A model generated the notes under the pieces. It was not told the DNA's origin. It saw only the letters and a program-made list of their open reading frames with translations, and did not search any database. This document shows positions 2,360-27,182 of a stretch of 58,574 nt of DNA, piece after piece; position 1 is the first letter of the stretch, and each line of letters opens with the position of its first letter. Source of the stretch: Chloroflexota bacterium (GTDB taxonomy: Bacteria > Chloroflexota > Anaerolineae > Anaerolineales > UBA4823); NCBI GenBank assembly GCA_029265355.1, contig JAJUJL010000025.1, positions 1 through 58,574 on the forward strand, in the 5' to 3' direction. Position numbers and translations under genes: made by a program.

Positions 2360-2362
2360 GCT

Positions 2363-3355: not shown

Positions 3356-6246
3356 GGCGATTCCTCCCAGGTCAGCGCCTGGCTGTGCAGCGGGTACACA
3401 TCCAGGATCACGATAGCGTGCAATCTCTCCGGCAGGTGTGTGCCGCGCGGCAGGCGCAGGGTCAGCCTGGAGAGGTTGCCGGAAGCGTCTTGCTCGACCG
3501 TGTGCAGGTGAGCGTAATCCAGGCTGAGCGCTCTCTCGTGAACCGTATCCACCAGCGCGATGCAGGCGCGGCGCTCTCCAACCGGAAGCGAGGCGCCCGG
3601 ATCGAGTGAAAATTGCGCCTGCACGCGGCCGTCTTTGCGGCTGGAGGGGGGTTGAAAGAGCACTTCGCTCACCGACACGCCCTCCGGTCGCTGGTTACTG
3701 GGGCTATGCTCAGGGTAAGGCCGTGTGATAAACGTGCCGCACACGACCAGTTTTTCCGCCAGGTTATTGGCCAAACCCGCCAGGGCGATCTTCCAGCCAA
3801 AGTTGGGTATGTCCAGCACGCGCGTTTCAGCGTAGGTGCTGGCGCCAGGCAGGACGATGCCATCCATCCCCAGCCGGCCGCGCAGCTCGAACAGGCGGAA
3901 GGGGATCTCGATGCCTGTGATCGGCAAGTGGAAGTCTTCGTTCGAGATGATGAAAGCCTCTCCCAGGCACTCGCCGCTCAGCGGTAGCAGCAGCTCACTG
4001 TGCGGGTCGGCGCGCAGCACACCCTGGGCGTCGCGCCGCGCCCCAACCGCCCAAAGCACCAGGCGGCTGCGGCCTCCAGCGCGCTCTGGCCCATGATACA
4101 CCGGCGCGATGATCCAATCCAGGTAATCGAAGCCGATCTGGTTGAGGCTGGGCAGCATGGTGGGCAGCGCCGCCGCCAGGCGCGTCCACTCGATCGCCCC
4201 GCTGCGCTGCGGGCCAATGATCAATGGGAAGTACTGCGCCGTGGGTTCTTCCACATAAAAATGGAATTTCTCGGAAAGCTCTCCTTCCAACTGCCCGCTC
4301 AAGGTCAGGTTACCCAGGCGCAGCCCGCTGGTGTAGTACCTGGCCTTCACCGAGAGTGAATATTGGCTGCCTGGCGTGAGGAAATCCAGCGGGCGAATGT
4401 GCAAATAACTGCCATCGGCTGAGACTTCCACCTGCGCCTTGATCGGCGGTTCGAAGCTCACCTGCACATTCCTGCGCCCGGCCACACCGGCTTGCAGGCG
4501 GGCAGGGAGATGCTCGCCGTATCGTTGGACGGAGAGGCGCAGGGTGATCAGCGCTTCTGGTCCCAAGGCGGCGGGGAACTCTGGCAGTGTGCTGCCGCCG
4601 GGCGTCACATAGCATAACCTGGTCTGCGCGCCATTTTGCACGCTGCGCGGCGATGGTTTGACCTGGGATGGCGATCCCGCCAGGCCGCGCCCATCCTCCG
4701 GGCAGTGCAGCGGGTAATCGTAGGGGATGTAGCACACCAGGCCGTGCTCGCCGCCAATCACGATACCGCGCCCGCCCAGCGCTGGAGAGCCGTTGAGGTC
4801 GTTGCGGTCGCGCAGCTCAGGCTCATCGGGCGTGGTGTCGTAGCGCCAGCGCAGGCTGCCATCGATGCCGTTGATCGCATACAGGCAGCCATCCCCGCAA
4901 CCGAAGTAGACGATCTCGCCGCCCTCCGGCGCTAGCCCAACCGCCGGCGAGGAGCGAATCGGGTCGCCGGCATAGAACTTCCAGCGCAGCGCCCCATCGG
5001 CTGGCTCCAGGGCGTACAGGTAGCCGTCGGTCGAAGCCAGGTAGATGGTGCGGGTCTCACCGCGGTTATCTGCACCCAGGGCTACCGAAGCGTAGATGTG
5101 GTCCAGCGTGGCGAAACGCCACTTCACCCGCCCCCGGCGCGGTTCCAGGCAGTACAGGTTGCTGTCGAAAGAGCCAATGTAGATGCTGCCATCAGATCCG
5201 ATGGCTGCCGAAGCGGCGATGAAACCCAGCGTGCGCCGCTTCCAGCGCGGCTTTCCCTGCGGCGTCACGGCATGTACGTGCGTGTCGCACGAGCCCCAAT
5301 AAATGCTGCCGTCGTCGCCGAACGCGGCCTGCGACCAGGCATTGCTGCCCGTGGGATACGACCATTTCAGGCTGCCGTCGGGGTTCACCGCATAGTAATG
5401 AAAGTTGGTGTTGCCGGCGTACAGGGTGCCATCGAAGCCCACTGCCACGTTGCCTTCGAACCAGCGGTTGAAGCTGACACCGGGCTGCAGCGGCGCTTCG
5501 AACTTCCACAGGATTTCGCCGTCCTCGCGGCGCGCCTGGTACATGAAGCCATCCCCTGAGATGAAGGTGACCGTCTCCTCGCCCAGCGCCGCGGCCGAAT
5601 CGATCACCTCGCCGGTTTCATATTTCCATTTCACTCTGCCATCCGGGTGCAGGGCATAGAAGGTGTGGTCGGCTGAGCCGATATAGATGCAGCCCTGGGC
5701 GTCGATCACCGGCGTCGAGAAGATGCCTTTGGCGGTGGCGAAGGTCCAGGGGTGATCGCCGTGGTACTGCGCCTGGATTGGGCTGCGCCCGCTGTTGCGG
5801 TGATCGCGGCGAAAAGTGGGCCAGGGCGAGCTGGCTTGCACAGGCGCCTGGTAGCCATAGGGCAACGAGGGAAGCTGCGCTCCCAGGGTGGTGTAGCCGT
5901 GCGGTTCGGACAGGCGAAAGCCGGGCAGCGCCGCACGGCGCACACGCACCACACCGCTGGCTGGCGTTCCTGCCTCGGGCAGGCGGGCGATGATGCGCGC
6001 CTCGCTCCAGGAGAGAATTTCCAACGGCGACCAGCTTCCATCTGCATTTCGCCTCTCCAGGCGGCTGGCCCCCTGGCGGCTGCCAAAGCGCTCGCCCTGC
6101 ACCAACAGGAGTTGCCCGGCTTGCGCCTCATCGCGCGGCGCCACCGGTATGCGCAAGATGCGCGGCTGCTGGCGCCGCCACCAGCCGGCAAACAGCGCGC
6201 TGGTTGCCAGCGCGATCAGAACATTCAGCCAGCCTCGCTTCTTCAT
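3352..6246 (-). CDS. PQQ-repeat beta-propeller protein with IPT/TIG-like and Ig-like domains
   Basis: A 964-residue exported or membrane-anchored protein. Residues 1-24 form a signal anchor with no lipobox. Residues ~30-125 look like an IPT/TIG domain. Residues ~140-500 contain repeated PQQ-propeller blades: IYIGSADHTFYALHPDGRVKW, LYAGNTNFHYYAVNPDGSLKW, IYIGSFDSNLYCLEPRRGRVKW and others. This type occurs in BamB-like and quinoprotein-like folds, but PQQ-binding residues cannot be claimed. The C-terminal half resembles bacterial Ig-like modules and then an unrecognised beta-rich region. A ribosome binding site AAAGGA lies 8 bp before the ATG. It is the first gene of a three-gene operon with an oxidoreductase and an esterase. 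No enzymatic role is assigned. Confidence 0.7.
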   Translation of the reverse strand: MKKRGWLNVLIALATSALFAGWWRRQQPRILRIPVAPRDEAQAGQLLLVQGERFGSRQGASRLERRNADGSWSPLEILSWSEARIIARLPEAGTPASGVVRVRRAALPGFRLSEPHGYTTLGAQLPSLPYGYQAPVQASSPWPTFRRDHRNSGRSPIQAQYHGDHPWTFATAKGIFSTPVIDAQGCIYIGSADHTFYALHPDGRVKWKYETGEVIDSAAALGEETVTFISGDGFMYQARREDGEILWKFEAPLQPGVSFNRWFEGNVAVGFDGTLYAGNTNFHYYAVNPDGSLKWSYPTGSNAWSQAAFGDDGSIYWGSCDTHVHAVTPQGKPRWKRRTLGFIAASAAIGSDGSIYIGSFDSNLYCLEPRRGRVKWRFATLDHIYASVALGADNRGETRTIYLASTDGYLYALEPADGALRWKFYAGDPIRSSPAVGLAPEGGEIVYFGCGDGCLYAINGIDGSLRWRYDTTPDEPELRDRNDLNGSPALGGRGIVIGGEHGLVCYIPYDYPLHCPEDGRGLAGSPSQVKPSPRSVQNGAQTRLCYVTPGGSTLPEFPAALGPEALITLRLSVQRYGEHLPARLQAGVAGRRNVQVSFEPPIKAQVEVSADGSYLHIRPLDFLTPGSQYSLSVKARYYTSGLRLGNLTLSGQLEGELSEKFHFYVEEPTAQYFPLIIGPQRSGAIEWTRLAAALPTMLPSLNQIGFDYLDWIIAPVYHGPERAGGRSRLVLWAVGARRDAQGVLRADPHSELLLPLSGECLGEAFIISNEDFHLPITGIEIPFRLFELRGRLGMDGIVLPGASTYAETRVLDIPNFGWKIALAGLANNLAEKLVVCGTFITRPYPEHSPSNQRPEGVSVSEVLFQPPSSRKDGRVQAQFSLDPGASLPVGERRACIALVDTVHERALSLDYAHLHTVEQDASGNLSRLTLRLPRGTHLPERLHAIVILDVYPLHSQALTWEESP

Positions 6247-9201: not shown

Positions 9202-11205
9202 ATGGCGAAAGGTAAGCGTTCTTACGAAGAAAAAACCGCCGATCCCGCAGCGCAGGAGATGCTCATCCGCGCTGACGAGCTGGGGATTGGCACCGCGTTC
9301 AGCCGCGCCGACGACATGGTGCCCTGCAATATCGGCGGCGCCGGCATGTGCTGCAAGCTGTGCGGCATGGGTCCCTGCCGCTTGACCAAAGACGGGCAAA
9401 CCGGCGTGTGCGGCGCCACCATCGACACCATCCAGGCGCGCAACTTCATTCGCGCCGTAGCGGCTGGCTCCGCCGCCCACTCCGACCACGGCCGCGATAT
9501 GGCTTTCACCCTCAAGGCAGTCGCCAACGGCGAGGCGGAAGGCTACGTGATCCGCGATGTCGCCAAGCTGCGCACGGTGGCCTCTTACTACGGCATTCCC
9601 GTTGAGAAGCGCTCACCCCAGGAAATCGCCAACGACCTGGCCGATCTGTACATCGCCCAATTCGGGCAGCAGCGCGGCGAGATCGTTCCGCTGCGCCGGG
9701 CGCCCAAGAAGCGCCAGGAACTCTGGAAGCAGACTGGCGTCGTGCCGCGTGGCATCGATCGTGAGGTGGTTGAAGCGCTGCACCGCACGCACATCGGCGA
9801 CGACCAGGACCACCGCCACATCCTGCAGCACGCCATCCGCACCGCGCTGGCTGACGGTTGGGGCGGCAGCATGATCGCCACGGATGTTTCGGATATCCTG
9901 TTCGGCACGCCAGCGCCGATCCTGGGCATGGCCAACCTGGGCGTGTTGAAAGACGATATGGTGAACGTGATTGTGCACGGCCACGAGCCCACGCTGAGCC
10001 AGATGATCGTCGCCGCCTCGCAAGATCCCGAAATCATCGAATATGCCCGCGCTGCCGGAGCGCAGGGCGTGAATCTGTCCGGCATTTGCTGCACCGCCAA
10101 CGAAATCTTGCTGCGCCAGGGCATACCAGCGGCGGGCAATTTCCTGCACCAGGAGCTGGCCATCCTGACCGGCGCAGTGGAAGCCATGGTGGTGGATGTG
10201 CAGTGCATTATGCAGGCTCTGGTGGACCTGTCGAGCAACTTCCACACCCACATCATCACCACCTCGCCCAAGGTGCGCATCAAGGGCGCTTTGCACATCG
10301 AGTTCGATGAGCACAAGGCGCTGACCATTGCCAAGCAGATTCTCAAGACTGCCATCGATAATTACAAGAACCGCGGCAAAACCCACATCCCACAGGTGCG
10401 CGAAAACCTGATTCCGGGCTTCTCTCACGAGTACATCAACTACATGCTGGGTGGCACTTACCGGGCTTCCTTCCGCCCGCTGAATGACGCCATTATGGCC
10501 GGGCGCATCCGCGGCGTGGCGGCCATCGTCGGCTGCAATAATCCCCGCTCCAAGCAGGACTATTTGCACACCTATGTCACCCAGGAGCTGCTCAAGCAGG
10601 ATGTGCTGATCGTCGAGACTGGCTGCGGAGCCATCGCTGCCGCCAAGCAGGGCTTGCTCCTGGGCGAGGCTGGGCTGGACAAAGTCGGGCCAGGCCTGCG
10701 CGAAGTGTGCGAGACGGTGGGTATACCGCCCGTGCTGCACATGGGCTCGTGCGTGGACAACACCCGCATCCTGACCGTGCTGACCCAGATGGTGGAAGAG
10801 GGCGGCCTGGGCGACGACATCGACCAGATCCCGGCAGTTGGCCTGGCGCCGGAATGGATGAGCGAGAAAGCGCTGTCCATTGGCACTTACTGCGTGGCCT
10901 CCGGGGCGTATGTCATCTTTGGCGGTTCGTCACCGGTGAGCGGCATGCCCGACCGGGTAGCCGACAGCGACCTGGTGCTGAATTATCTGAGCCAGGGCTG
11001 GGAGGAGCTCTACGGCGGCAAGATGGAGTTCATCGCCGATCCAGACGAGATGATCCGGCGCACGCTGGCGCACATCGACGCCAAGCGCGCCGCCCTGGGT
11101 CTGCCAGCCTGGGATCCGCAGCGCTTTGGACGCAGCGGCGACGCCCGCATGCTGGAGCTGGAAGCTTTGCCGGTGGCGCAGCGCCGCGCGGCGATCTACG
11201 GATGA
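9202..11205 (+). CDS. acsA: Anaerobic carbon-monoxide dehydrogenase catalytic subunit
   Basis: A 667-residue protein of normal length for Ni-Fe CODH (CooS/AcsA). It interconverts CO2 and CO, feeding CO to acetyl-CoA synthase. Cysteines for the D- and B-clusters are seen at C42, C50, C51, C54, C59 and C70 (CNIGGAGMCCKLCGMGPC). The proton-relay region AAHSDHGRDM holds H93 and H96. C-cluster regions are present: SGICCTANEILLRQG, IVGCNNPRSKQD, ETGCGAIAAAKQG and HMGSCVDNTR. The ATG follows GAGGAGG located inside the end of the preceding gene. Its position directly before acsB makes it the ACS-partner CODH rather than a stand-alone CooS. Confidence 0.97.
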   Translation: MAKGKRSYEEKTADPAAQEMLIRADELGIGTAFSRADDMVPCNIGGAGMCCKLCGMGPCRLTKDGQTGVCGATIDTIQARNFIRAVAAGSAAHSDHGRDMAFTLKAVANGEAEGYVIRDVAKLRTVASYYGIPVEKRSPQEIANDLADLYIAQFGQQRGEIVPLRRAPKKRQELWKQTGVVPRGIDREVVEALHRTHIGDDQDHRHILQHAIRTALADGWGGSMIATDVSDILFGTPAPILGMANLGVLKDDMVNVIVHGHEPTLSQMIVAASQDPEIIEYARAAGAQGVNLSGICCTANEILLRQGIPAAGNFLHQELAILTGAVEAMVVDVQCIMQALVDLSSNFHTHIITTSPKVRIKGALHIEFDEHKALTIAKQILKTAIDNYKNRGKTHIPQVRENLIPGFSHEYINYMLGGTYRASFRPLNDAIMAGRIRGVAAIVGCNNPRSKQDYLHTYVTQELLKQDVLIVETGCGAIAAAKQGLLLGEAGLDKVGPGLREVCETVGIPPVLHMGSCVDNTRILTVLTQMVEEGGLGDDIDQIPAVGLAPEWMSEKALSIGTYCVASGAYVIFGGSSPVSGMPDRVADSDLVLNYLSQGWEELYGGKMEFIADPDEMIRRTLAHIDAKRAALGLPAWDPQRFGRSGDARMLELEALPVAQRRAAIYG

Positions 11206-11209
11206 GATG

Positions 11210-11369
11210 TTTACCGCAAAGGCGCGAAGGTGGCAAAGGTTTTATGCTGCTTCAGCGAAGGCTTCATCCGGCGCTGTGCATCGCCGGGGCTGATATGTTG
11301 ATTATGAGCGCCCTGCTAAAACCTTTGGCTAAGCGTTTTCTTCGCGCCTTAGCGCCTTCGCGGTTAAAT
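11210..11369. repeat. Imperfect long inverted repeat between acsA and acsB
   Basis: The 183-bp gap between the two genes contains a left arm around 11210-11243 (TTTACCGCAAAGGCGCGAAGG, then GGCAAAGGTTTT). The right arm at ~11316-11369 reads, on the other strand, TTTAACCGCGAAGGCGCTAAGG and later CCAAAGGTTTTA. The arms match imperfectly. This resembles the ACCGCNAAGGCGC repeats scattered in many environmental bacterial genomes. A Shine-Dalgarno (TAGGGAG) and the acsB start follow it. It may fold in the mRNA, but a function is not evident. Confidence 0.55.
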
Positions 11370-11388
11370 TCTTAGGGAGAATAAACTT

Positions 11389-13656
11389 ATGTCGAGATAC
11401 ATTGCAACCCGAGCCATTCGCGGATCGAACGCCCTGGTGATGGAGGCCGAGGTGATGCTCGACCGGGCGATTGCCGAGAAGGGCGCCGAGACACCGGTTT
11501 CTTTCCCCAACACGGCTTACTACCTGCCGCTGATCTACGCCATGACCGGCCAGGCGGTGGAGACGTTGGGCGGGCTGCGACCGGTGCTGGAACACGCCCG
11601 CAGTTTGCTGCACCCCATTCCTTCTGGCAAATACTGGTCGCCTTACCTGGGCGAGACCCTGGATAGCGGCATGGCGACGCTGCTGGCAGCCGAAACCATC
11701 GAGGCGATCCGCTTTGTTTATGGCTTGCAGCCTGAACCGATGCCGGGCTTCAACCTGGCTGGCGGCACTTCCTACGGTCCGAACGACCCAGGCGGGCACC
11801 TCAACGGTCCCATCGATGACATCCAGTTGCGCTCGTGGGGCATCCAGCTCGTCGACGGGCGTATGCCAGGCTTCGCTGCCATCGTCGGCGCAGCCAAATC
11901 GAACGAGGTGGCGGTCAAGATCGTGCGCGAGCTGCAGCGGCGCAACATCCTGACCTTCCTGAGCGGCAATGTCAATGGGCGCTCCATCATCCACCAGCTT
12001 CAGGAGGAGGGCGTGGAGCTGGGCTACGATACCTACACCGTGCCTTTCGGCACCGATACCCTCAGCGCCATCTACGCCCTGGGCTTCGCCGCCCGCTCAG
12101 CGCTCACCTTTGGCGGCTTGAAAGCCGGCCAGGCGCGCGAGATCCTGCTCTACAACCGCGAGCGCGTCTTCGCCTTTGTGCTGGCGCTGGGCGAAGTGGA
12201 CGATTTGAAATACGCTGCCGCAGCCGGGGCGATCAACTTCGGCTTCCCGGTCATCGCCGACACGCTTATCCCAGAGATACTGCCCACCGGCGTCACCCGC
12301 TACGAGCACGTGGTGAGCATGCCCTTCAACCAGATCGAGGGCAAAGACGACATGGAGCGGGCCGAAGCGTTGGTGCAGAAGTGCATCGAGGTGCGCGGCG
12401 TCAAAGTCAAGGTCGCCAATGTGCCCGTGCCCGTGCCGTACGGTTCGGCGTTCGAGGGCGAAGTGGTGCGCAAGACTGACATGCGCGTCGAGTTCGGCGG
12501 CAAGCATTCGCGCTGCTTCGAGTACCTGCACATGGCGCCCCTGGATCAGGTCACCGATGGCAAGGTGGAGGTGGTCGGCCCGGATTTCTCCCAGGTGCCG
12601 CCCCAGGGTTCCATGGATATGGGCATCGTGGTCAAGGTCGCCGGGCGGCAGATGCAAGAAGACTTCGAGCCGGTGCTGGAGCGCCAGATCCACTACTTCA
12701 TCAACGGCGCATCGGGCATCCAGCACATCGGTCAGCGCGATATCGCCTGGATCCGCATCTCCAACGCCGCCGCAGAAAAGGGCTTCAGCCTGGAGCACTT
12801 CGGCAAGATCTTGCACGCCCGCTTCCACGCCGATTTTGGCGCTATCGTGGACAAGGTGCAGGTGACGATTTACACCGAGCCGGCCCTGCTCGCCGAATGG
12901 CTGGCGAAAGCCCGCGCCGCTTACGACTACCGCAACAAGCGCCTGGCAGACCTGACCGACGACAAGGTAGACGAGTTCTACTCGTGCACATTGTGCCAGT
13001 CGTTCGCACCCAACCACGTCTGCGTGGTCAGCCCGGAGCGCCTGGGCCTGTGCGGCGCTTACAACTGGCTGGACTGCAAGGCCTCCTACAATATCAACCC
13101 GACCGGACCCAACCAGCCGATCAAGCTGGGCAAACCCATTGACCTGGTCAAGGGCTACTGGACCGGCACCAACGATTACGCCAAGGTCGGCTCGCACGGG
13201 CAGGTGCAGGAAGTCTCGATGTACTCCATCATGGAGAACCCGATGACTGCCTGCGGCTGCTTCGAGTGCATCGTGATGCTCATCCCTGAAGCCAACGGCG
13301 TGATGGTGGTCAGCCGTGAAGACACCAGCATGACGCCTGCCGGTATGACCTTCAGCACGCTGGCGGGCATTGCCGGCGGCGGTCTGCAAACCCCGGGTGT
13401 GATGGGCGTGGGCAAGTTCTACCTGATCAGCCCCAAGTTCATCTCGGCGGATGGCGGCTTCAAGCGCGTGGTGTGGATGAGCAGCGTGCTCAAGGAGACC
13501 ATGGCCGAGGAGTTGAAAGCCGTGGCGGAGCGCGAAGGCGATCCAGACTTGATCGAGAAGATCGCCGACGAGCGCCATGTCTCCACCGTGGAAGAGCTGC
13601 TGGCCTGGATGGAAGAGCACAACCACCCGGCGCTGGTGCTGGACCCCATGTTCTAA
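11389..13656 (+). CDS. acsB: CO dehydrogenase/acetyl-CoA synthase subunit (ACS, bacterial type)
   Basis: A 755-residue acetyl-CoA synthase, which joins CO, a methyl group from the corrinoid protein and CoA at the Ni-Ni-[4Fe-4S] A-cluster. The cubane ligands are seen as C533, C536, C545 and C555 (CTLCQSFAPNHVC, then ERLGLCGAYNW). The distal-nickel C-G-C motif is C622-G-C624 (TACGCFEC). The N-terminal part, which forms the CO tunnel with CODH in the bacterial enzyme, is complete, so this is the long bacterial form and not the short archaeal CdhC. Length is slightly above that of Moorella AcsB. It is followed 18 bp later by a CBS-domain gene. Confidence 0.97.
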   Translation: MSRYIATRAIRGSNALVMEAEVMLDRAIAEKGAETPVSFPNTAYYLPLIYAMTGQAVETLGGLRPVLEHARSLLHPIPSGKYWSPYLGETLDSGMATLLAAETIEAIRFVYGLQPEPMPGFNLAGGTSYGPNDPGGHLNGPIDDIQLRSWGIQLVDGRMPGFAAIVGAAKSNEVAVKIVRELQRRNILTFLSGNVNGRSIIHQLQEEGVELGYDTYTVPFGTDTLSAIYALGFAARSALTFGGLKAGQAREILLYNRERVFAFVLALGEVDDLKYAAAAGAINFGFPVIADTLIPEILPTGVTRYEHVVSMPFNQIEGKDDMERAEALVQKCIEVRGVKVKVANVPVPVPYGSAFEGEVVRKTDMRVEFGGKHSRCFEYLHMAPLDQVTDGKVEVVGPDFSQVPPQGSMDMGIVVKVAGRQMQEDFEPVLERQIHYFINGASGIQHIGQRDIAWIRISNAAAEKGFSLEHFGKILHARFHADFGAIVDKVQVTIYTEPALLAEWLAKARAAYDYRNKRLADLTDDKVDEFYSCTLCQSFAPNHVCVVSPERLGLCGAYNWLDCKASYNINPTGPNQPIKLGKPIDLVKGYWTGTNDYAKVGSHGQVQEVSMYSIMENPMTACGCFECIVMLIPEANGVMVVSREDTSMTPAGMTFSTLAGIAGGGLQTPGVMGVGKFYLISPKFISADGGFKRVVWMSSVLKETMAEELKAVAEREGDPDLIEKIADERHVSTVEELLAWMEEHNHPALVLDPMF

Positions 13657-15295: not shown

Positions 15296-16612
15296 ATGGC
15301 GCTTTCTGGAATTCAAATCTACAAACTGCTACCGCAGACCAACTGCAAGGAATGCGGTTTCCCCACCTGCCTGGCCTTCGCCATGAAGCTGGCTGCCAAG
15401 CAAGTCGAGCTGGCCTCCTGCCCATACGTCAGCGAGGCATCCAAGGCGCAGTTGGCTGAGTCGTCCGCTCCGCCTATCCGCCTGGTCAGCCTGAAAGCCG
15501 ATGGACGCGAGGTGAAAGCTGGCAACGAGGTGGTGCTCTTCCGGCATGAGAAAACCTTCTACAACAAGCCTGGCGTGTTCGTCAAGCTGGCCGATTCGCT
15601 TTCCGAAGCCGAGCTGCAGGCGGCGCTGAAAGCTGTGGAAGCCTTTCACGTCAACTACGTCGGCATCGATCTCTCGCTGGATGGCTTTGCCGTCGAAAAT
15701 GTCTCTGGCGATGGCGCCAGGTTTGCCGCGGCGGTCAAGACCGTGCGGGCTCACTCCAAGCGCCCGCTGATCCTGCTGGCTGGCGAGGCCGGGTTAGCCG
15801 CCGCTTTGCCGCTGCTGGCGGGCGAAACGCCGCTGGTTGGCCCGGCGACGGATGGCAACTGGCAGGCGCTGGCAGCCCTGGCAAAAGAGCACAAAGCCGC
15901 CCTGCTCGTCCAGGGAGAGTCGCTGGACGCCCTGGCGGAGCTGAGCGAGAAGATCAAGGGCGCCGGGCTGGAAGACCTGGTGCTGCAGCCGGTCGCTGCC
16001 ACGTTGGCGGGCAAGCTGGCGCTCAATACCCACATCCGCCGCCTGGCGCTGAAGAAAAATTTCCGCCCCTTGGGCTTCCCCACCCTGGCGGTGGCGGGCA
16101 GCGCTGAAGAAGCTGTGCAGGCGGTGACCAAATACGCCGGCTTCATTATCCTGGAGCGCTTCGCGCCTGAACTGGCTTACCCGCTGCTGGTGCTGCGTGA
16201 GAACATCTACACCGACCCGCAGAAACCGATCCAGGTGCAACCCGGCGTGTACGAGATCAACAATCCCAAGCCCACCGATCCGGTGCTCGTCACCACCAAC
16301 TTCTCGATCACCTATTTCAGCGTGGCCAACGAAGTCGAGTCTTCCGGCCTACCGGCCTGGCTGGTGGTGGTGGACGCCGAGGGCATGAGCGTGCTCACCG
16401 CCTGGGCAGCGGGCAAGTTCGACGCCGAGCGCATCGCCAAATCGTTCCGAACCTTCAACATGGCCGACAAGGTCAGCCACAAGCGCCTTGTGCTACCCGG
16501 GCATGTCGCGGTGCTCTCTGGCGAGCTGGAGGCTGAGCTGCCCGATTGGGAGATCCGCGTCGGTCCGCGCGAGGCGGTCGACCTGCCCAAGTTCATGAAG
16601 CAGGCGTTGTAG
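15296..16612 (+). CDS. acsC: Corrinoid/iron-sulfur protein large subunit
   Basis: A 438-residue AcsC/CdhE. The N-terminal [4Fe-4S] domain has C17, C20, C25 and C42 (NCKECGFPTC, then ELASCPY), the cluster that passes the activating electron to cobalt. The middle is a TIM barrel and the C-terminal ~130 residues form the cobamide-binding domain (GLPAWLVVVDAEGMSVLTAW, LVLPGHVAVLSGELE). It is the partner of AcsD at 14284. A RACo-type activator follows 77 bp later, which fits the need to rescue oxidised cobalt. The start ATG at 15297 in the annotated frame follows a GGAG-type site. Confidence 0.94.
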   Translation: MALSGIQIYKLLPQTNCKECGFPTCLAFAMKLAAKQVELASCPYVSEASKAQLAESSAPPIRLVSLKADGREVKAGNEVVLFRHEKTFYNKPGVFVKLADSLSEAELQAALKAVEAFHVNYVGIDLSLDGFAVENVSGDGARFAAAVKTVRAHSKRPLILLAGEAGLAAALPLLAGETPLVGPATDGNWQALAALAKEHKAALLVQGESLDALAELSEKIKGAGLEDLVLQPVAATLAGKLALNTHIRRLALKKNFRPLGFPTLAVAGSAEEAVQAVTKYAGFIILERFAPELAYPLLVLRENIYTDPQKPIQVQPGVYEINNPKPTDPVLVTTNFSITYFSVANEVESSGLPAWLVVVDAEGMSVLTAWAAGKFDAERIAKSFRTFNMADKVSHKRLVLPGHVAVLSGELEAELPDWEIRVGPREAVDLPKFMKQAL

Positions 16613-16689
16613 AGGCCGCATGAGGCGTGTTGAGGCACGGCAGCCTCACCGCCGTGCCCGCCTCGGTGGACCTCTCTTGAGACGATTGC

Positions 16690-18645
16690 ATGGCTCACAC
16701 CTTTACCGTAACCTTTGATGGCTTTCCAGAGCCGGTGCGCGTGCCCAGCGGTTCGCTGCTTTCGGACGCCGTGCGCCTGGCCGGCATCGAACTGCAGCAA
16801 CCCTGCGGGGGGCAAGGGCGCTGCGGGCGCTGCGCGGTGCTGGTGCAATCCGGAGCGGTGCGGCGGCGCTCTTCGCTGCGCCTGTCCGCTGAGGACGTGG
16901 CGGCTGGCTATGCCCTGGCCTGCCAGACGGTGATCGAGGGCGACCTGCAGGTGCATGTGCCGCCGCAGGAGAAGATCGAGCGCCGCCTGACCACCGACCG
17001 CACCGCCGTGGAGGTCTCCCCGCCAGCCGATTACGACCCTGCCACGGTGCAGCCATTGCGCCGCTACACGCTGACCCTCTCCCCGCCCAGCATGGACGAC
17101 CAGACCGATGATTGGGCGCGCTTGCAAACCGCCCTGCGCCAACAAGCCGGGCTCAGCGAGGTGAAAGTCTCTTTACCGGTTTTGCGGCGCATCGGGCAGG
17201 CGCTGCGCGATGGCGACTGGACTGTGACCGTCACCCTGGACATGAAGACCTGGGACTGCCCGGGCTGCCCGGCGGCGCTGATCGACATACAGCCCGGCGT
17301 GATCCCGGCTGGCGATCCGCTGTGGGGCGTGGCGATCGATATCGGCACCACCACCGTCACCCTGTGGTTGGTCGATCTGATCACCGGCAAAGTGCAGGCC
17401 CAGGCTTCGGAGTACAACCAGCAGATCAACCGCGGCGAGGATGTCATCTCGCGCATCATCTACGCCTCTAAGTCGCCGGAGAACGGCGAAGAGATGCAAC
17501 GCCTGGTGTTGGACACCATCCACGATGTGCTCAAGCGCGCCTGCGGACGGGTTGGCATCCAACCGGAGCAAGTGATGAAGGCGGTGATCGCCGGCAACAG
17601 CACCATGATGCACCTGTTGCTGGGCATACCCGCTGCCAGCATCCGCCTGTCGCCGTTCGTCACCGCTGTCAATCATGTTCCCACCCTGTCGGCCAGCGAG
17701 GTGGGCCTGGGCATTCATCCCAACGCCACCGTGGACTGCCTGCCGGGCGTGGCGTCTTACGTCGGCGCGGATATCACCGCTGGCGTTTACGCCTCCGGCA
17801 TGGAAACTGCCCAGGGCATCACCCTGTTCCTGGATGTGGGCACCAACGGCGAGACGGTGCTGGGTACTCGCGATTGGCTGGTGACCTGCGCCTGCTCGGC
17901 GGGGCCGGCTTTCGAAGGGGCTGGCGTGCGCTACGGTATGCGCGCCACCCGGGGCGCCATTGAAGAAGTGTGGATCAACGCTGAGACCGCCGAGCCCACT
18001 TACCGGGTGATTGGTGGCGTCAAGCCCTCCGGCATCTGCGGCTCGGGGCTGATCTCGCTGTTGGCAGAGATGTTCATGACTGGCGTGATCGATAAAGCCG
18101 GGCATTACAACACCCACCTGAACACGCCGCGCATCCGCGAAGGCGAGCACGGGCTGGAGTATGTCGTCGCCTGGGCGGATGAAACCTACTGCGGGCGAGA
18201 CATCGCCATCACCCACGTGGATGTGGACAACCTGCTGCGCGCCAAGGCCGCCATCTACGCCGGTTTCACCGTGATGAGCGAGTCGGTTGGCGTGCCGCTG
18301 GACGCTGTCGAACAGGTGTTGATCGGCGGCTCGTTTGGCAAATACATCAATGTCGAGAAAGCCGTGCAGATTGGCCTGCTGCCCGATATGCCCTGGGAGC
18401 GCTTCCAGTTCCTGGGCAACACCTCGGTCAAAGGGGCATACTTCGCCTTGCTCGACCAGCGCGCTCGCCAGCGCATCCACGAGATCGCGGCGCGCATGAC
18501 CTACATCGAGCTTTCCGCCGACAACAGCTTTTACGACGCCTTCATGTCGGCCATGTTCCTGCCGCACACCGATTACCGGCGCTTTCCCACGATTGCCGCC
18601 GCGCTCGAGGAAACCACCAAAAACCTGAGCCGCCCTGGCTCATGA
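16690..18645 (+). CDS. RACo: reductive activator of the corrinoid/iron-sulfur protein
   Basis: A 651-residue protein with an N-terminal [2Fe-2S] domain (C39, C45, C48, C78; CGGQGRCGRC, then LACQ), a linker, and a C-terminal ASKHA ATPase-fold domain (AIDIGTTTVTLWLVDL, VIAGNSTMMHLLLG, FLDVGTNGETVLG, GPAFEGAGVRYGMRA, GICGSGLISLLAEMF). It reduces inactive Co(II) CoFeSP to Co(I) at the cost of ATP. Its place between acsC and acsE makes it the dedicated activator of this cluster. It shares the whole architecture with 6355-8196 but is clearly diverged in sequence. Confidence 0.92.
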   Translation: MAHTFTVTFDGFPEPVRVPSGSLLSDAVRLAGIELQQPCGGQGRCGRCAVLVQSGAVRRRSSLRLSAEDVAAGYALACQTVIEGDLQVHVPPQEKIERRLTTDRTAVEVSPPADYDPATVQPLRRYTLTLSPPSMDDQTDDWARLQTALRQQAGLSEVKVSLPVLRRIGQALRDGDWTVTVTLDMKTWDCPGCPAALIDIQPGVIPAGDPLWGVAIDIGTTTVTLWLVDLITGKVQAQASEYNQQINRGEDVISRIIYASKSPENGEEMQRLVLDTIHDVLKRACGRVGIQPEQVMKAVIAGNSTMMHLLLGIPAASIRLSPFVTAVNHVPTLSASEVGLGIHPNATVDCLPGVASYVGADITAGVYASGMETAQGITLFLDVGTNGETVLGTRDWLVTCACSAGPAFEGAGVRYGMRATRGAIEEVWINAETAEPTYRVIGGVKPSGICGSGLISLLAEMFMTGVIDKAGHYNTHLNTPRIREGEHGLEYVVAWADETYCGRDIAITHVDVDNLLRAKAAIYAGFTVMSESVGVPLDAVEQVLIGGSFGKYINVEKAVQIGLLPDMPWERFQFLGNTSVKGAYFALLDQRARQRIHEIAARMTYIELSADNSFYDAFMSAMFLPHTDYRRFPTIAAALEETTKNLSRPGS

Positions 18646-18663
18646 GGAGGAAAGGATCTATTT

Positions 18664-19587
18664 ATGTACATCATTGGAGAAAATATCCATATCATTTCGG
18701 ATAAAGTCAAGGCCGCCCTGAAAGAACGCGACGCGAAGTTCTTCCAGGACCTGGCAGTGCGCCAGGTGGAAGCCGGAGCCCAGGCGCTGGACCTGAACCT
18801 GGGGCCGCGCAAAGCCGACTGGCAGGAAGTCTTCCCCTGGATCGTGGACACCGTCCAGGCTGTGGTTGACGTGCCGCTCTCCTTCGACAGCACCAACATC
18901 CTGGGCATCGAGGCCGGCCTGCAGCGCGTCACCAAAGCCCAGCCGATCATCAACTCCACCTCCGCCGAGCCGGAGCGCCTGGAGAAAGTGCCCTTGCTGG
19001 CCAAGAAGTACAACACCCGCCTGATCGCCCTGACCATGGGCTCTTCCGGCATTCCCGTGGCAGCCGATGAGCGCGTCAATATCGCCCTGGAAAAGATCAT
19101 CCCGCGCATGCTGGAGATCGACTTCCCGATCAGTGACCTGATCATTGACCCGCTGGTGCTGACCGTCTCGGGTTGCCAGGAGTATTGCCCGCACCTCATT
19201 GAAGCGGTGCGCACGCTGCAGTACGCCTGGGATCCGCCGCCAGCCATCTCGGTCGGGCTGTCGAACGTTTCCAACGCGGTGCCCAACGAGAACCGCCCGT
19301 TGATCAACCGCGTCTACTGCGCCATGCTGATGGGCGTAGGCTTGAAGATGATGATCGCCAACCCGCTCGAGCGTGAGCTGATGGAAGTGGTGCGCATCAT
19401 CGAGCAGCGCGACGCCTCCACGCCGGTGGGCGCCCTGTACCTGAAGATCGCCGATCGCATCGCCAACATGGAAGAGCCGAGCATCGAAGACGTAGATATG
19501 AGCGATCCCGAACAGGCTGCCATCTGGAAGACGGTGCAGATCCTGCTCAACAAGGTCATCTACGCCGAAAGCTACCTGAGCCAATAA
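18664..19587 (+). CDS. acsE: Methyltetrahydrofolate:corrinoid/iron-sulfur protein methyltransferase
   Basis: A 307-residue TIM-barrel protein of the pterin-binding family. It moves the methyl group of CH3-THF to Co(I) of CoFeSP. Pterin-site motifs are seen: GENIHIISDKV, ALDLNLGP, VPLSFDSTN, PIINSTSAE, LIIDPLVLTVSG and ISVGLSNVSNAVP. It is ~45 residues longer than the Moorella enzyme, mostly at the C-terminus. The ATG lies after GGAGGAAAGG. It is the last gene before a strong hairpin, so the fused MetVF gene downstream may be partly uncoupled. Confidence 0.92.
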   Translation: MYIIGENIHIISDKVKAALKERDAKFFQDLAVRQVEAGAQALDLNLGPRKADWQEVFPWIVDTVQAVVDVPLSFDSTNILGIEAGLQRVTKAQPIINSTSAEPERLEKVPLLAKKYNTRLIALTMGSSGIPVAADERVNIALEKIIPRMLEIDFPISDLIIDPLVLTVSGCQEYCPHLIEAVRTLQYAWDPPPAISVGLSNVSNAVPNENRPLINRVYCAMLMGVGLKMMIANPLERELMEVVRIIEQRDASTPVGALYLKIADRIANMEEPSIEDVDMSDPEQAAIWKTVQILLNKVIYAESYLSQ

Positions 19588-19596
19588 TCAAGTTGT

Positions 19597-19633
19597 GGTG
19601 ACCATGCCATGGCGCAGCCATGGCATGGTCACC
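19597..19633 (+). terminator. 17-bp hairpin after acsE
   Basis: The arms are GGTGACCATGCCATGGC (19597-19613) and GCCATGGCATGGTCACC (19617-19633), perfectly paired with loop GCA. It is followed by CGCCTTATTATG, so the U-tract is weak. It may be a terminator, an attenuator or an mRNA-stabilising stem between acsE and metVF. Confidence 0.6.
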
Positions 19634-19671
19634 GCCTTATTATGTGAAGAATGTGACAAATGACATTCAAG

Positions 19672-19702
19672 GCGGGGTGACATATGACCATTGTCACCCC
19701 GC
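19672..19702 (+). promoter_or_regulatory. Second hairpin in the metVF leader
   Basis: GCGGGGTGACA (19672-19682) and TGTCACCCCGC (19692-19702) pair perfectly over a 9-nt loop. It lies 65 bp before the metVF start. Together with the stem at 19597-19633 it gives a leader with two strong hairpins. No anti-terminator pairing was established. Confidence 0.45.
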
Positions 19703-19766
19703 TTCTCGCGTATTAAAATTGGGACATAGCGTGTCAGGTTTCTTTGCACATTGCAGGAGGTCGTTT

Positions 19767-21260
19767 ATGCCGGTCTTCACCCCAGGTCGCCGTTGGCAGC
19801 CCCCCTTTATGCCCTTCAAAAGAGAACCCTTTGGACGGCGTGTGCTGGCAGCCGTCGAGAAAGCCATCAAGGGGCCTTTGTTCGGTTGCCGAATGTGCGG
19901 CAATTGCCTGTTGCAGGAGACAGCTTTTATCTGCCCGATGGAATGCCCCAAGGGCATTCGCAACGGCCCGTGCGGCGGCTCCACGCCGGAGAAGTGCTAC
20001 GTCGACGAGACGCGCCCCTGCATGTGGTACCAGATTTACGACCGCGCCTTCAAGATGGGGCGCGAAGAGATGCTGCTGGAAGTGCTGCCGCCGTTGGATT
20101 GGAACAAGGTGGGCACCGAAACCTGGGGCGATGTGGTGCGCCAGGTGCGCAAGGTGGGCGCTGGCAAAGTGGTCTCCGGCCTGGTTTCGCGCGACCCGAT
20201 GAGGCGCGCCCAGACCTGGGACTCTATCTTCCAGCCGGTGCGCCAGCCAGAGTGGTGGCAGGGCGACGCCGAGTACCACGCCCCTGCCTACTCCGAGCCG
20301 GTCTCTGAGCTGGAGCGACGCTTGAAAGCCGGGCAGTTCGTGGTCACCGGCGAGGTGGCTCCGCCCATGACGGTGGCGACCAAGAAGCTGGTGCAAAACA
20401 TCGAGCTGATCAAGCCCTACGTGGCGGCGGTCAACTTCACCGATTCGCCCTCCGCCACGCCGCGCATGTCCTCCTGGGCCTGCTCAGCTATGGCCATCCA
20501 GGCCGGCGCCGAGCCAGTGATGCAGATCGCCGCCCGCGACCGCACCCGCACCGGCCTGCAAGCCGAAGTGTTGGGCGCGGCTGCCTTGGGTGTGCGCAAC
20601 ATCCTGTGCCTGTCCGGCGACAGCATGCGCATGGCGCCCGAGCCGCGCGGCCGCATGGACATCGTGGATATCGACTCCATCCAGATGCTGTGGATACTGC
20701 GCCGCATGCGCGACGAGGGCAGGTACCTGGACGGGCGCGAGATCAAGTTCCCACCCAAGTACTTCCTGGGCGCGGCGGCTGCGCCGTTCGCCTCTGACCC
20801 GCGCTTCCAGGCCATCCGCGAGCACAAGAAAGTCAATGCCGGAGCGCAGTTCTTCCAGACCAACCTGGTTTATGACATCGGCGGCCTGGAGACCTGGCTG
20901 AACGCCATCGCCAGGCGGGACATCCTGGACAAGGTCTACATCCTGGTAGGCATCACCCCGTTGAAGAGCCTGAAGATCGCCCAGTACATGCACAACGAAG
21001 TGCCGGGCGTGTTCATCCCCGAGAAGCTGCTCAAGCGCATGGAAGCCGCCGGCGACGGCGCTGCCGAGGAAGGCGTGCAGATCGCCCTGGAGCTGATCGA
21101 GCAGGTCAAAGGTCTGCAGGGCATCCACGGCATCCACCTGATGGCGGTCGGCTGGGAAGAGATCGTGCCGCGCATTGTCACTGAGGCCGGGCTGCTGCCG
21201 GAGGGCTTCACGCCGCCGCAAGCGAAGGAAAAGCCCGCCAAAGTGGGCGTGATGAATTAG
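19767..21260 (+). CDS. metF: Fused MetV-MetF methylenetetrahydrofolate reductase
   Basis: A 497-residue protein. The open frame extends to 19620, but the ATG at 19767 has a strong GCAGGAGGT 6-7 bp upstream. Residues ~1-190 form a MetV-like zinc/iron-sulfur domain rich in cysteine (GCRMCGNCLLQ, FICPMECPKGI, NGPCGGS, EKCYVDETRPC). Residues ~195-497 form a MetF barrel (FVVTGEVAPPMTVATKK, MQIAARDRTRTGLQAEVLGA, ILCLSGDS, FFQTNLVYD). In many acetogens metV and metF are separate genes. The product makes methyl-THF, the substrate of AcsE. A strong terminator follows. Confidence 0.9.
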   Translation: MPVFTPGRRWQPPFMPFKREPFGRRVLAAVEKAIKGPLFGCRMCGNCLLQETAFICPMECPKGIRNGPCGGSTPEKCYVDETRPCMWYQIYDRAFKMGREEMLLEVLPPLDWNKVGTETWGDVVRQVRKVGAGKVVSGLVSRDPMRRAQTWDSIFQPVRQPEWWQGDAEYHAPAYSEPVSELERRLKAGQFVVTGEVAPPMTVATKKLVQNIELIKPYVAAVNFTDSPSATPRMSSWACSAMAIQAGAEPVMQIAARDRTRTGLQAEVLGAAALGVRNILCLSGDSMRMAPEPRGRMDIVDIDSIQMLWILRRMRDEGRYLDGREIKFPPKYFLGAAAAPFASDPRFQAIREHKKVNAGAQFFQTNLVYDIGGLETWLNAIARRDILDKVYILVGITPLKSLKIAQYMHNEVPGVFIPEKLLKRMEAAGDGAAEEGVQIALELIEQVKGLQGIHGIHLMAVGWEEIVPRIVTEAGLLPEGFTPPQAKEKPAKVGVMN

Positions 21261-21268
21261 AGAAATAA

Positions 21269-21294
21269 CCCCGCCTGGTGAAGGCGGGGTTTTT
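21269..21294 (+). terminator. Rho-independent terminator of the CODH/ACS cluster
   Basis: The stem CCCCGCC (21269-21275) pairs with GGCGGGG (21283-21289) over a 7-nt loop and is followed directly by TTTTT. It lies 8 bp after the metVF stop, a textbook intrinsic terminator and the end of the Wood-Ljungdahl operon. Confidence 0.92.
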
Positions 21295-21460
21295 GTTTGG
21301 CGCACGACACGGATTTCTACACGGATTGCACGGAGTCTTCCCTCCGGCAGGCGATCTTGTCGGGGCGACCCATGCGAGTTGAACCAGGCGCCAGCAGGTA
21401 AGGCAGGTATGCAGGCTGGCGCACTGCCTGGCGAAAAACGGGTCGCTCAGAAAGCACGCC

Positions 21461-21709: not shown

Positions 21710-21915
21710 GGTGTTTTCTCCTTGACATTGGTTATACCATCAAACTCGGTCGAAGAATCACTTAACTTGCCAGGCCAGTGATATTTTGCTACATTCTTGA
21801 GGTGAGCGCGCGATAACCACTCTCCTGGTTATCGTCGAACCTGCCTTAATTCAGTGTCTGGAGTGGATTGTCCATGGACAGAACCGATCGGTGTCCGCTG
21901 AAGGGGTCTGTTGGC

Positions 21916-23904
21916 ATGTTCACCAGGATGCCTGGCTTGTTCACCGTCATTGCCCTGTGCTGGCTGGTCGCCTGCCAATCGATTGCCGCCCCCGCCCCAA
22001 CCGCTACGCTCCCCGCGCCAACCGCTTTGCCCCCACCTGTTCGCACTGCCGCCAGCCCCAGCCCCACCGCCACACCTGCCATACCCCCTGCCTCGCCCAC
22101 GCCGGAGTTTGCCCCTCACCCGATTCTGGGCGACCAGCGCGTGCGCCAGGCGTTGGCCTTGTGCACCGACCGCGCCGCGCTGGTGCGCTCGGTCTACCCA
22201 TGGCTGGATGAATCGGAGACGCTGGTCGCCGATTCAATTGTTCCGCCCCGCCATCCCGCCTACGCCGGCGATGCGGCGGATTTCACCCGCTACCCCTTCG
22301 ATGCGCAGCAAGGCATGACGCTGCTGGAACAGGCCGGTTGGAAGCTGGCGAGCGGCGCTGCCTACCGAACCAATGCCAGCGGCGATGAGCTGGCGCTCAC
22401 CCTGACCACGACCGAATCCAGCTTCCGCAGAGCCTGGAGCGAAGCCTGGGTCGAGCAGATGGCAGCCTGCGGCGTCCACATCTTGCTCGACCCGCAGTCG
22501 GCGGAGTGGCTGTTCGGCGCGGAGAGTGGCCTGAGCCGCCGCGACTTCGAGCTGGCCGCCTTCGCCTGGCAGGCTGGATTCGATTTTGGCACCCTGGATG
22601 CGTTTGCGCGCTACGCCTGCGAGCAGGTTCCGTCGTTGGACAATGGCTGGCAGGGGCAGAATTTCTCAGGCTGGTGCAACCCGACCGTGGACGCCGCGCT
22701 GCAGGAAGCTGCCGCCAGCCTGGAGCAGCCTGTGCAGCTCCGCGCCCTGCAGCGCTTGCAGGTGGAGCACACGCGTGAGCTGCCCGAGCTGCCGCTCTTC
22801 TACCGCCTGGACCTGTTCGCCGCCAACCCGGGCCTGGAGAACTTCGACCCTCCGGAAGATGGCATGCACACCTGGAACGCTGCACAATGGCGCATCCCTG
22901 GCAGGGATACGATCATCATCGGCGAGGATGGTGAGCCGGCTGCGCCGCTGTGGTTCGAGCCAGCCTATGTCGCCGGTGTGATTCGCACGCTGATCATGGG
23001 CAGCGACGTCGTGCCGCGCGCTGGCGCTTATCAGCCAGTGATGCTCAAAGAGCTTCCTTCTCTTGACAACGGCGGTGTGACGCTTGAGCTGGCGACTGTG
23101 AGAGAAGGCGACCGGGTGGTGGATTGGCGCGGCGAGGTGGTCGAGTTGCAGCCAGGCGCGCTGGTTGCGGACGCTGACGGGCTCAGGCATGCCTATGCTG
23201 GCGGCGAGATTGCCATGCGCCAGCTCATCGTCACCTATCAATTCGTGGACGGCCTGGCCTGGTCGGATGGCGAGCCCGTCTCCGCCGCCGATTACGAGCT
23301 GGGCTACCGCGCCCTGTGCGACCCCGCCGTGCGCGGCGAGGGGCCGTTCAGCGTGAATATGCCCGATCCAGCTCCCGCCTGTGATCGCATCGCTGCGGTG
23401 GAGTTTCTGAACGATGCCGCCTACCGCGTCGCCTGGCTGCCCGGTTTCACCGGGGCGCGCCTGGGCTACGCCGACCTGCCCTATTTCCTGCCGCCTTTCA
23501 GCCGCCTGCCTGCCCACCAGGCAGTTTCTGACGGGCGCAAGCTGGCGGAGACGCCCTTCCGTGAGTGGTTTGGCCTGGACGAGGTGTTGAAGAGCCCGTT
23601 GGGAGCCGGCCCGTATGTGCTCAAGAATTGGACCTACGGGCAGGGCATGCTCCTGGAAGCTAACCCGCATTATTTTGCCGGTCCGCCAGCCACACCGCGC
23701 ATCGAGATCCGCTTCCTGGAGCACGAACAGGCGCTGCGCGCCCTCGCCGCCGGCCAGGTGGATCTGCTGGATTGGGAGACGATTGGGCCGCAGGATGTCG
23801 AAGCCTTCCAGCTTGTTCAGGCTCAGCAAGAAGGCCGTGTGCGCCTGGTGAGGCGGCCCGCCAACACCTGGGAGCTGCTCAGTTTCAAGCTGCGGCTGCC
23901 CTGA
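21916..23904 (+). CDS. Family-5-type solute-binding lipoprotein with apparently permuted halves
   Basis: A 662-residue protein from the ATG at 21916; TTG 21868 and ATG 21874 in the same frame are alternatives. The signal ends in the lipobox LVAC, then comes a Pro/Ala/Thr linker. Residues ~70-310 resemble the C-terminal half of SBP_bac_5 peptide-binding proteins (LGDQRVRQALALCTDRAALV, then a PLFYRLDLFAANPGLENF-like end). Residues ~318-662 resemble the N-terminal half (PLWFEPAYVAGVIRTLIMG, GLAWSDGEPVSAADYELGY, GAGPYVLKNW) and end at LLSFKLRLP, where normal family members continue into the VRQAL segment. So the halves are in reverse order. No permease or ATPase genes are adjacent. The ligand is unknown. 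Confidence 0.7.
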   Translation: MFTRMPGLFTVIALCWLVACQSIAAPAPTATLPAPTALPPPVRTAASPSPTATPAIPPASPTPEFAPHPILGDQRVRQALALCTDRAALVRSVYPWLDESETLVADSIVPPRHPAYAGDAADFTRYPFDAQQGMTLLEQAGWKLASGAAYRTNASGDELALTLTTTESSFRRAWSEAWVEQMAACGVHILLDPQSAEWLFGAESGLSRRDFELAAFAWQAGFDFGTLDAFARYACEQVPSLDNGWQGQNFSGWCNPTVDAALQEAAASLEQPVQLRALQRLQVEHTRELPELPLFYRLDLFAANPGLENFDPPEDGMHTWNAAQWRIPGRDTIIIGEDGEPAAPLWFEPAYVAGVIRTLIMGSDVVPRAGAYQPVMLKELPSLDNGGVTLELATVREGDRVVDWRGEVVELQPGALVADADGLRHAYAGGEIAMRQLIVTYQFVDGLAWSDGEPVSAADYELGYRALCDPAVRGEGPFSVNMPDPAPACDRIAAVEFLNDAAYRVAWLPGFTGARLGYADLPYFLPPFSRLPAHQAVSDGRKLAETPFREWFGLDEVLKSPLGAGPYVLKNWTYGQGMLLEANPHYFAGPPATPRIEIRFLEHEQALRALAAGQVDLLDWETIGPQDVEAFQLVQAQQEGRVRLVRRPANTWELLSFKLRLP

Positions 23905-23966: not shown

Positions 23967-24134
23967 GTAGGGGCAACAGCATCCGGCAGAACCGCCCTGC
24001 CGCCATCGCGCCGCGCTCCAGCCGGATGCTTTGCCCGCTGTGGGCGCGTCTCGAGAGGCCGGGGACGGGTCAAGCATTTGCCCGCTGGAGAGGCCTCCCT
24101 GCCAGGTGGGCTTTGGCAAATGCTTGACCCCTAC
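23967..24134. repeat. 168-bp palindromic dispersed repeat, copy A
   Basis: The element is bounded by GTAGGGG and CCCCTAC. It holds two hairpin modules. One is built on CATCCGGC/GCCGGATG with GGGCAA/TTGCCC flanks. The other is GGGTCAAGCATTTGCC (24067-24082) paired with GGCAAATGCTTGACCC (24115-24130). A closely similar 169-bp copy lies at 27014-27182 in the same orientation. It carries no gene and looks like a MITE- or REP-type element. Confidence 0.8.
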
Positions 24135-26980: not shown

Positions 26981-27182
26981 TCCATCCGGATGCTTTGCCC
27001 GCCCCCCATAATCGTAGGGGCAACAGCATCCGGCAAGACCGCCCCGCCGTCATCGCGCTATCCTCGAGCCGGATGCTTTGCCCGCCGCGCGCGCCCTGAA
27101 GGGGGTCGGGTGCGGGTCAAGCATTTGCCTGGTCGAGATGCATCCGTGTCAGGTGGGGCTTTGGCAAATGCTTGACCCCTAC
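26981..27182. repeat. Palindromic dispersed repeat, copy B (169 bp) plus partial arm
   Basis: 27014-27182 repeats the 23967-24134 element, again bounded by GTAGGGG and CCCCTAC and with the same two hairpin modules. A partial extra arm (ATCCGGATGCTTTGCCCG) sits just before it at 26985-27002. The rest of the 311-bp gap up to 27273 is short spacer; a TTGACG at 27214-27219 has no matching -10 at normal distance. Confidence 0.8.

Follow-up and report, generated by a model that had tools for sequence, protein, structure and literature searches.

Among the binding proteins of ABC importers, the lipoprotein TpMglB-2 (Tp0684) of Treponema pallidum, designated 'Type Ic / Cluster Bc', carries a natural circular permutation, as described in the sections of PMC4990184 that we drew on. 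For the E. coli peptide-type importer, the portion of PMC12136057 used here places a scoop motif of DppB after TM1, between TM1 and the alpha3 helix, and describes its insertion in the cleft between the lobes of DppA. In the open-licence PMC papers searched, we found no published permuted solute-binding protein (SBP) of family 5; PMC2588589, in the part seen, is unrelated to such proteins.

Here we analyse a gene at 21916..23904 (+) of the window, the whole 58,574-nucleotide stretch of DNA under study, that encodes a 662-aa circularly permuted SBP_bac_5 lipoprotein. As far as the literature searched shows, this is the first recognised natural circular permutation among family-5 (cluster C) SBPs. 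Our overall explanation, which we hold with good confidence, is that the window gene belongs to an old Chloroflexota family of permuted family-5 SBPs, that most members of this family are importer subunits, and that the window copy is a diverged orphan.

Half order and predicted fold of the window protein

The ORF is intact, running from an ATG at 21916 to a stop codon at 23902-23904, and an alternative in-frame TTG is found 48 nt upstream, at 21868. By inspection, a signal peptide with the lipobox LVAC ending at Cys20 (21916..21975, +) precedes a Pro/Thr-rich linker recognised in the sequence (residues 21-65; 21976..22110, +). The C-half stands in first place (residues 66-328; 22111..22899, +) and contains the VRQA segment, the second lobe and the usual C-terminal end. 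According to the alignment, FAWQAGFDFG (22561..22590, +) in this half takes the site of FAWVGxxDPxG in relatives; V219, G220 and P224 are identical in all 73 relatives of alignment A2 and are changed in the window protein. The N-half, with the first lobe, stands in second place (residues 329-662; 22900..23901, +). At the junction defined by the alignment (22888..22911, +), the old C-terminus TWNAAQW..G passes without an added linker into the old first mature strand DTIIIG. The new C-terminal strand TWELLSFKLRLP (23866..23901, +), located by alignment and modelled by AlphaFold2 as a strand at model residues 582-596, occupies the position of the family consensus TWEHIDxNLFxP.

The swapped order is evident from the profile matches. 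SBP_bac_5 (PF00496) was the sole Pfam-A family detected in the window protein; its score of 131.6 bits (cut-off 32.4) comes from two stretches of swapped order and not from one colinear stretch. Searched by itself, the first-half segment (from residue ~70) matched profile positions 211-350 of 368 with 58.6 bits, and the second-half segment (residue 318 on) matched positions 17-208 with 74.8 bits through residues 437-659. In contrast, the normal-order neighbour L031:7563-9512 matches positions 14-356 in one stretch. Separate matching of the halves to complementary parts of SBP_bac_5 thus bears out the original prediction that the halves are swapped: the first half does align to the family, and the two halves do not fall on the same part of the profile. 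Duplication of one half is ruled out, since the halves match different profile parts.

Comparison with the normal-order protein L158 defined the two points of rearrangement. L158 carries TWEHMDFN where the window chain ends at TWELLSFKLRLP, and reaches VRQA after a short loop; the permuted proteins end right after the TWEHxDxN-type strand and begin right before VRQA. L158 has the C-terminal sequence TWNIAEWEKG and its mature part starts with ADTLIIGMSQEP, and in the permuted proteins the old C-terminal part (TWNxxEW..G in L158) continues directly into the old first strand (DTIVLG..QEP-like). When PDB chains were compared with A2, the matches of the best 60 of 84 chains were at normal-order places, with first-half matches at chain position 255 or beyond and second-half matches at 47-312. 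Judged from the sequence, the protein is a natural circular permutation of a family-5 solute-binding lipoprotein.

AlphaFold2, run on residues 62-662 with 73 relatives as the structure prediction suggested as a check, predicted a single confident fold (pLDDT 89.1, pTM 0.87). VIA-align superposed model residues 6-268 on residues 274-520 of AppA (1xoc) with Z 24.1 and rmsd 4.0 (245 aligned); in its best 50 rows the first half of the model is covered, with Z from 20.8 to 24.1, and the second half is matched by sequence. By title, the best 50 Foldseek and the best 50 VIA-align rows are peptide-, nickel- or oligosaccharide-type binding proteins or domains, aligned half at a time, and no permuted family-5 chain is among them. 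On the predicted model, the two-lobed fold and its cleft should be kept despite the permutation. The model is a monomer, compatible also with a domain-swapped dimer. We dropped the idea that a single lobe-to-lobe connection remains, as the strand leading to the second half persists at the C-terminus.

Distribution and origin of the permuted family

In a first sample of 41 genomes (the window's own and 40 relatives), 12 matches in 11 genomes span both halves in the order of the window protein. These include the window gene, and the other 11 show 38-43% identity to its product. The twelve permuted sequences were aligned (A1) and have a single common junction. A contig search with the window protein alone confirmed no relative; the A1 profile did find relatives, 162 in number. 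The 80 loci retained from these all bear Chloroflexota-type titles, including Anaerolineales, Chloroflexus, Roseiflexus, Oscillochloris and Bellilinea, and isolates are among them (Chloroflexus islandicus, Bellilinea caldifistulae). Half-profiles from A1 sorted the ORFs of the loci into 131 C-N and 56 N-C, with 4 having the C-half alone and 3 the N-half alone, counted with repeats. Once repeats were removed, 101 distinct permuted proteins remained, counting that of the window, and this answers the search for homologues of the same order that had been proposed as a check. In all 101 the chain ends at most 5 residues from one point and 1-5 residues separate the half-profile matches, and of the 97 with a start not truncated at the edge of a contig, 94 have a lipobox-like motif ahead of the C-half.

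These proteins also decide whether the order could be an assembly or sequencing artefact, which might be considered given that the window's genome is in 64 contigs. Such an error is ruled out because 101 distinct permuted proteins, including those of the strains of C. islandicus and B. caldifistulae, have a common junction and a common end, leaving this explanation a vanishingly small probability.

Broader sampling gave a similar picture. Among 298 genomes of the class, 44 match A1 at E 1e-60 or better, 36 of them across the junction and the other eight with one half only or, in G112, with a split gene. At phylum level, 43 of 400 genomes have a hit reaching 1e-80, which crosses the junction in 42 and is again split in G112; at order level, 48 of 400 sampled genomes have a hit to the family profile reaching E 1e-90. 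None of the named NCBIfam equivalogs (Opp4A, NikA, SapA, DppA and others) was reached, the best being Opp4A with 85.6 bits versus a curated cut-off of 650.

Several loci carry variants of the permuted gene. In L160 it is present as two adjacent ORFs, C-half and N-half (2048-3031 and 3057-4205, both on the minus strand), which could be either a real split or an assembly frameshift. Proteins with the C-half only are encoded in L155 (1866-4058, +, two copies), L156 (2149-3516, -) and L157 (2852-4198, +); each C-half copy ends with the WEHIDxN strand, the tail ends with [YH]LPxxxR, and the proteins look like permuted SBPs minus the N-half. L230 (8532-10982, -, 816 aa) encodes a full permuted SBP with a tail resembling those of L155, L156 and L157.

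Separate trees were built for the C-half (91 rows) and the N-half (87 rows), with 30 permuted proteins sampled. The N-half tree places all 30 on one side of a branch with 100/100 support. In the C-half tree all 30, together with four half-protein rows, are on one branch side (98/98), and the permuted proteins without the half-proteins are supported only by 67/57; in a wider C-half tree the half-proteins fall inside the permuted group and two changes are needed. Profile order, the confident single-chain model, the 101 proteins of the same order and both half-trees all support the view that this is a circular permutation with a complete set of parts. The other suggestion of the original prediction, a fusion of two partial domains from neighbouring genes, is disfavoured as a private event.

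The normal-order parent is firmly placed by the C-half only, as the N-half trees join L158 and L159 to distant rows (96/61 and 89/63). With normal-order rows added, the C-half tree joins the permuted group to L158, L159 and L179 (98/91 and 100/96). A wider N-half tree has the permuted N-half near L158/L159 with support that is not firm, and an AU test did not reject L158/L159 as the sister of the permuted N-halves (p 0.395). L158 and L159 (genomes G174 and G208) have the C-halves nearest to the permuted clade, and L158 shares the TWEHMDFN strand and lies directly before DppB; they differ in their normal order and, for L158, in a DppB loop of 55 residues. The operon-adjacent normal-order SBP was rejected as the parent, being far from the permuted group in both half-trees.

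We propose that the ancestor was a normal-order SBP whose C-terminus became fused directly to its first mature strand, with new termini opening in the loop that links the TWEHxDxN strand to the VRQA segment. The lipid anchor would have moved in the process, being attached to the half that starts with VRQA rather than to the other half. Since tandem normal-order SBP genes exist (L041, L213), the rearrangement could plausibly have come about by duplication and later loss of the outer halves. The same tandem genes would also suit a mosaic ancestor, with the C-half of one SBP and the N-half of another, neighbouring paralogue. The firm grouping of the C-half with L158/L159/L179 next to the loose grouping of the N-half points in that direction, as does L158 in being without the N-half profile stretch ~65-109 that several other normal-order proteins match. 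Against this, the AU test keeps L158/L159 with the permuted N-halves and the normal SBPs of the operons are distant in both half-trees, and we consider a mosaic ancestor unlikely.

Operons and the DppB scoop loop

Eight of the 101 permuted genes have less than 1.4 kb of downstream sequence, and the next gene was testable in the other 93. DppB is directly next in 89 of these and is missing from that position in four, namely the window, L092, L108 (with 2.4 kb of sequence) and L109. Where at least 4.8 kb was available, 58 of 64 loci have DppB, C, D and F all inside that distance. Of the 34 loci with 8.5 kb on both sides, 14 carry a normal-order SBP on the same strand, no more than 9 kb away. Because DppB follows directly in nearly all testable loci, the permuted proteins most probably serve as binding subunits of an Opp/Dpp-type importer, a role read from gene order. 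We infer that most members act as capture subunits that would hold a ligand between the lobes and dock on DppBC, and the transport function and ligand class are inferred likewise. The DppB scoop, enlarged by a small predicted beta subdomain, would enter the SBP cleft and aid ligand transfer.

The loop between TM1 and TM2 of DppB is long in these operons: in all 90 DppB proteins beside permuted SBPs it spans 88-196 residues, with a median of 100, compared with 13-59 residues for 33 of the 38 others. Four DppB proteins beside normal-order SBPs (L044, L161, L162, L217) have loops of 182-207 residues, above nearly all permuted systems, which indicates that a long loop can arise without the permutation, and the remaining one of the 38, with 97 residues, belongs to the split permuted gene of L160. 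Alignment to PDB chains places the extra loop residues at residues 41-70 of OppB (8z21), and query residue 137 corresponds to residue 72 of DppB (8z1v). The AlphaFold2 model of one long-loop DppB (pLDDT 78.7, pTM 0.73) has small strands at 83-125, and the insert is predicted to be a small beta subdomain. In the insert, Cys98 and Cys120 are invariant in 40 sequences.

We read the enlargement of the permease loop as co-adaptation with the permuted SBP. A tentative extension, to which we give somewhat less than an even chance, is that the permutation and the enlarged scoop of DppB represent a single co-adapted change, making these systems a distinct Chloroflexota sub-type of peptide-type importer with an orphan clade and half-protein descendants. 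With the anchor on the other half, docking and opening of the SBP would change, and the DppB beta subdomain, perhaps with a Cys98-Cys120 disulfide, would hold or open the permuted SBP.

The window copy and its orphan clade

The window copy differs from this general picture in its context. The original prediction that no transporter genes are nearby holds for Opp/Dpp-type genes, none of which occurs within 9 kb of the window gene, so that this SBP does not lie beside its transporter type. It fails for the family as a whole, and also for the window at large, in which an unrelated branched-chain-amino-acid-type ABC system with a Peripla_BP_6 binding protein and neighbours is present from 35270. 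Just upstream, window positions 15296-21300 carry genes of a different pathway (CODH/ACS delta-type subunit, RACo-type activator, pterin-binding and MTHFR-type genes), and after them a terminator-like hairpin near 21270-21300, seen by inspection. Two copies of a perfect 16-bp inverted repeat, with arms 32-33 nt apart, are located at 24067-24130 and 27114-27178. Genome-wide, 11 occurrences of the arm were counted (5 forward, 6 reverse) versus 0 for the reversed control, and the repeat is therefore probably a small REP- or MITE-like element.

The window copy is the most diverged of the 101 proteins, a ranking made before L228 and L229 joined the set: its median identity to the rest is 38.7%, and the next lowest value is 45.4%. 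Of 169 columns with 90% conservation or more among the other 73 A2 proteins, it deviates at 48 (next member, 29 of 163), and the motifs WVGxxDP and WEHID are among those changed. The loss of these conserved columns suggests that it may no longer work with DppBC. The copy is not isolated in the tree: with L228 (G664) and L229 (G640) it forms an orphan clade inside the family (100/100), which a copy in G920 (L235/L265) joins by score. Run against 400 genomes of the order, a profile of the orphans gave 965-1178 bits in G000 (the window's own genome), G664 and G920, and at most 612 among the other matches listed. A profile search of the 7.9 kb downstream from L229 detected no Opp/Dpp-type gene; L229 itself starts at a contig end, and L265 ends 105 bases before one. 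The surroundings of L228 show no Dpp-type permease, with two other ABC-ATPase genes at least ~3 kb upstream on the opposite strand; directly after the orphan permuted SBP of L228 is a 954-aa fusion of Phosphonate-bd and normal-order SBP_bac_5 (10616-13480, +).

All four orphan genomes (G000, G664, G640, G920) also carry a complete permuted-SBP/DppBCDF operon. In G000 the second permuted copy is at C40, between a normal-order SBP and DppBCDF, and the operon DppB loop has 101 residues in each of G664, G640 and G920. MppA is an alternative SBP. By analogy with it, the window copy could be a diverged orphan paralogue that brings another ligand in trans to the permuted-type DppBCDF at G000:C40, a proposal to which we give close to an even chance.

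The original prediction of a stand-alone sensor does not suit the family, which is transporter-linked, and survives for the orphan window copy only as a rival, in which a ligand-binding or sensor lipoprotein would serve no transporter. Both the missing Opp/Dpp-type neighbours of the window copy, L228 and L229 and the WVGxxDP and WEHID changes common to the orphan proteins would fit it. Pfam, however, found SBP_bac_5 alone and no signalling domain in the window protein, L228 and L229, and the presence of an operon with a long-scoop DppB in every orphan genome favours use in trans; we regard the stand-alone role as rather unlikely. The divergence of the window copy could also be that of a decaying, non-functional duplicate, but its 662-aa ORF is intact, its lipobox is present and kindred orphans persist in other families of the phylum (G664 in f12, G640 in f118), which makes decay quite improbable. 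Supply of a ligand in trans thus remains our preferred reading of the window copy.

These data show a permutation that is old, widespread in one phylum and accompanied by a longer permease loop at the site of cleft entry in E. coli. The family offers a natural experiment on which SBP lobe needs tethering and on how SBP and permease co-evolve, and indicates that profile-based annotation can mask permuted members behind an ordinary family name. Compared with known systems, it is closest to the cluster C peptide-type SBPs (Thermus 2d5w, AppA 1xoc, DppA): the profile family is the same, the halves match their counterparts, and most permuted members have a DppBCDF operon, the difference being the swapped half order. 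The Thermus oligopeptide-binding protein 2d5w also has the WEHID.N and GQN.GW.N stretches in common with the permuted family. TpMglB-2, in the sections of PMC4990184 drawn on, resembles the permuted family in that its gene is clustered with its transporter, and differs in having a Type I / cluster B sugar-binding fold, in which the first three N-lobe strands are moved to the end, with a fourth cross-over; the cut in the window family, which belongs to family 5, moves one whole half. A TpMglB-2 type is excluded for the window protein, as its family is SBP_bac_5 and the structure-tested half fits DppA/AppA-type chains. With E. coli DppABCDF, as presented in the part of PMC12136057 used, the permuted systems share the DppBCDF organisation and the scoop region of DppB. 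The E. coli system has a normal-order DppA and a scoop region of ~30 residues, whereas in the permuted systems the DppB loop measures ~100 residues and includes two invariant Cys and a predicted beta subdomain.
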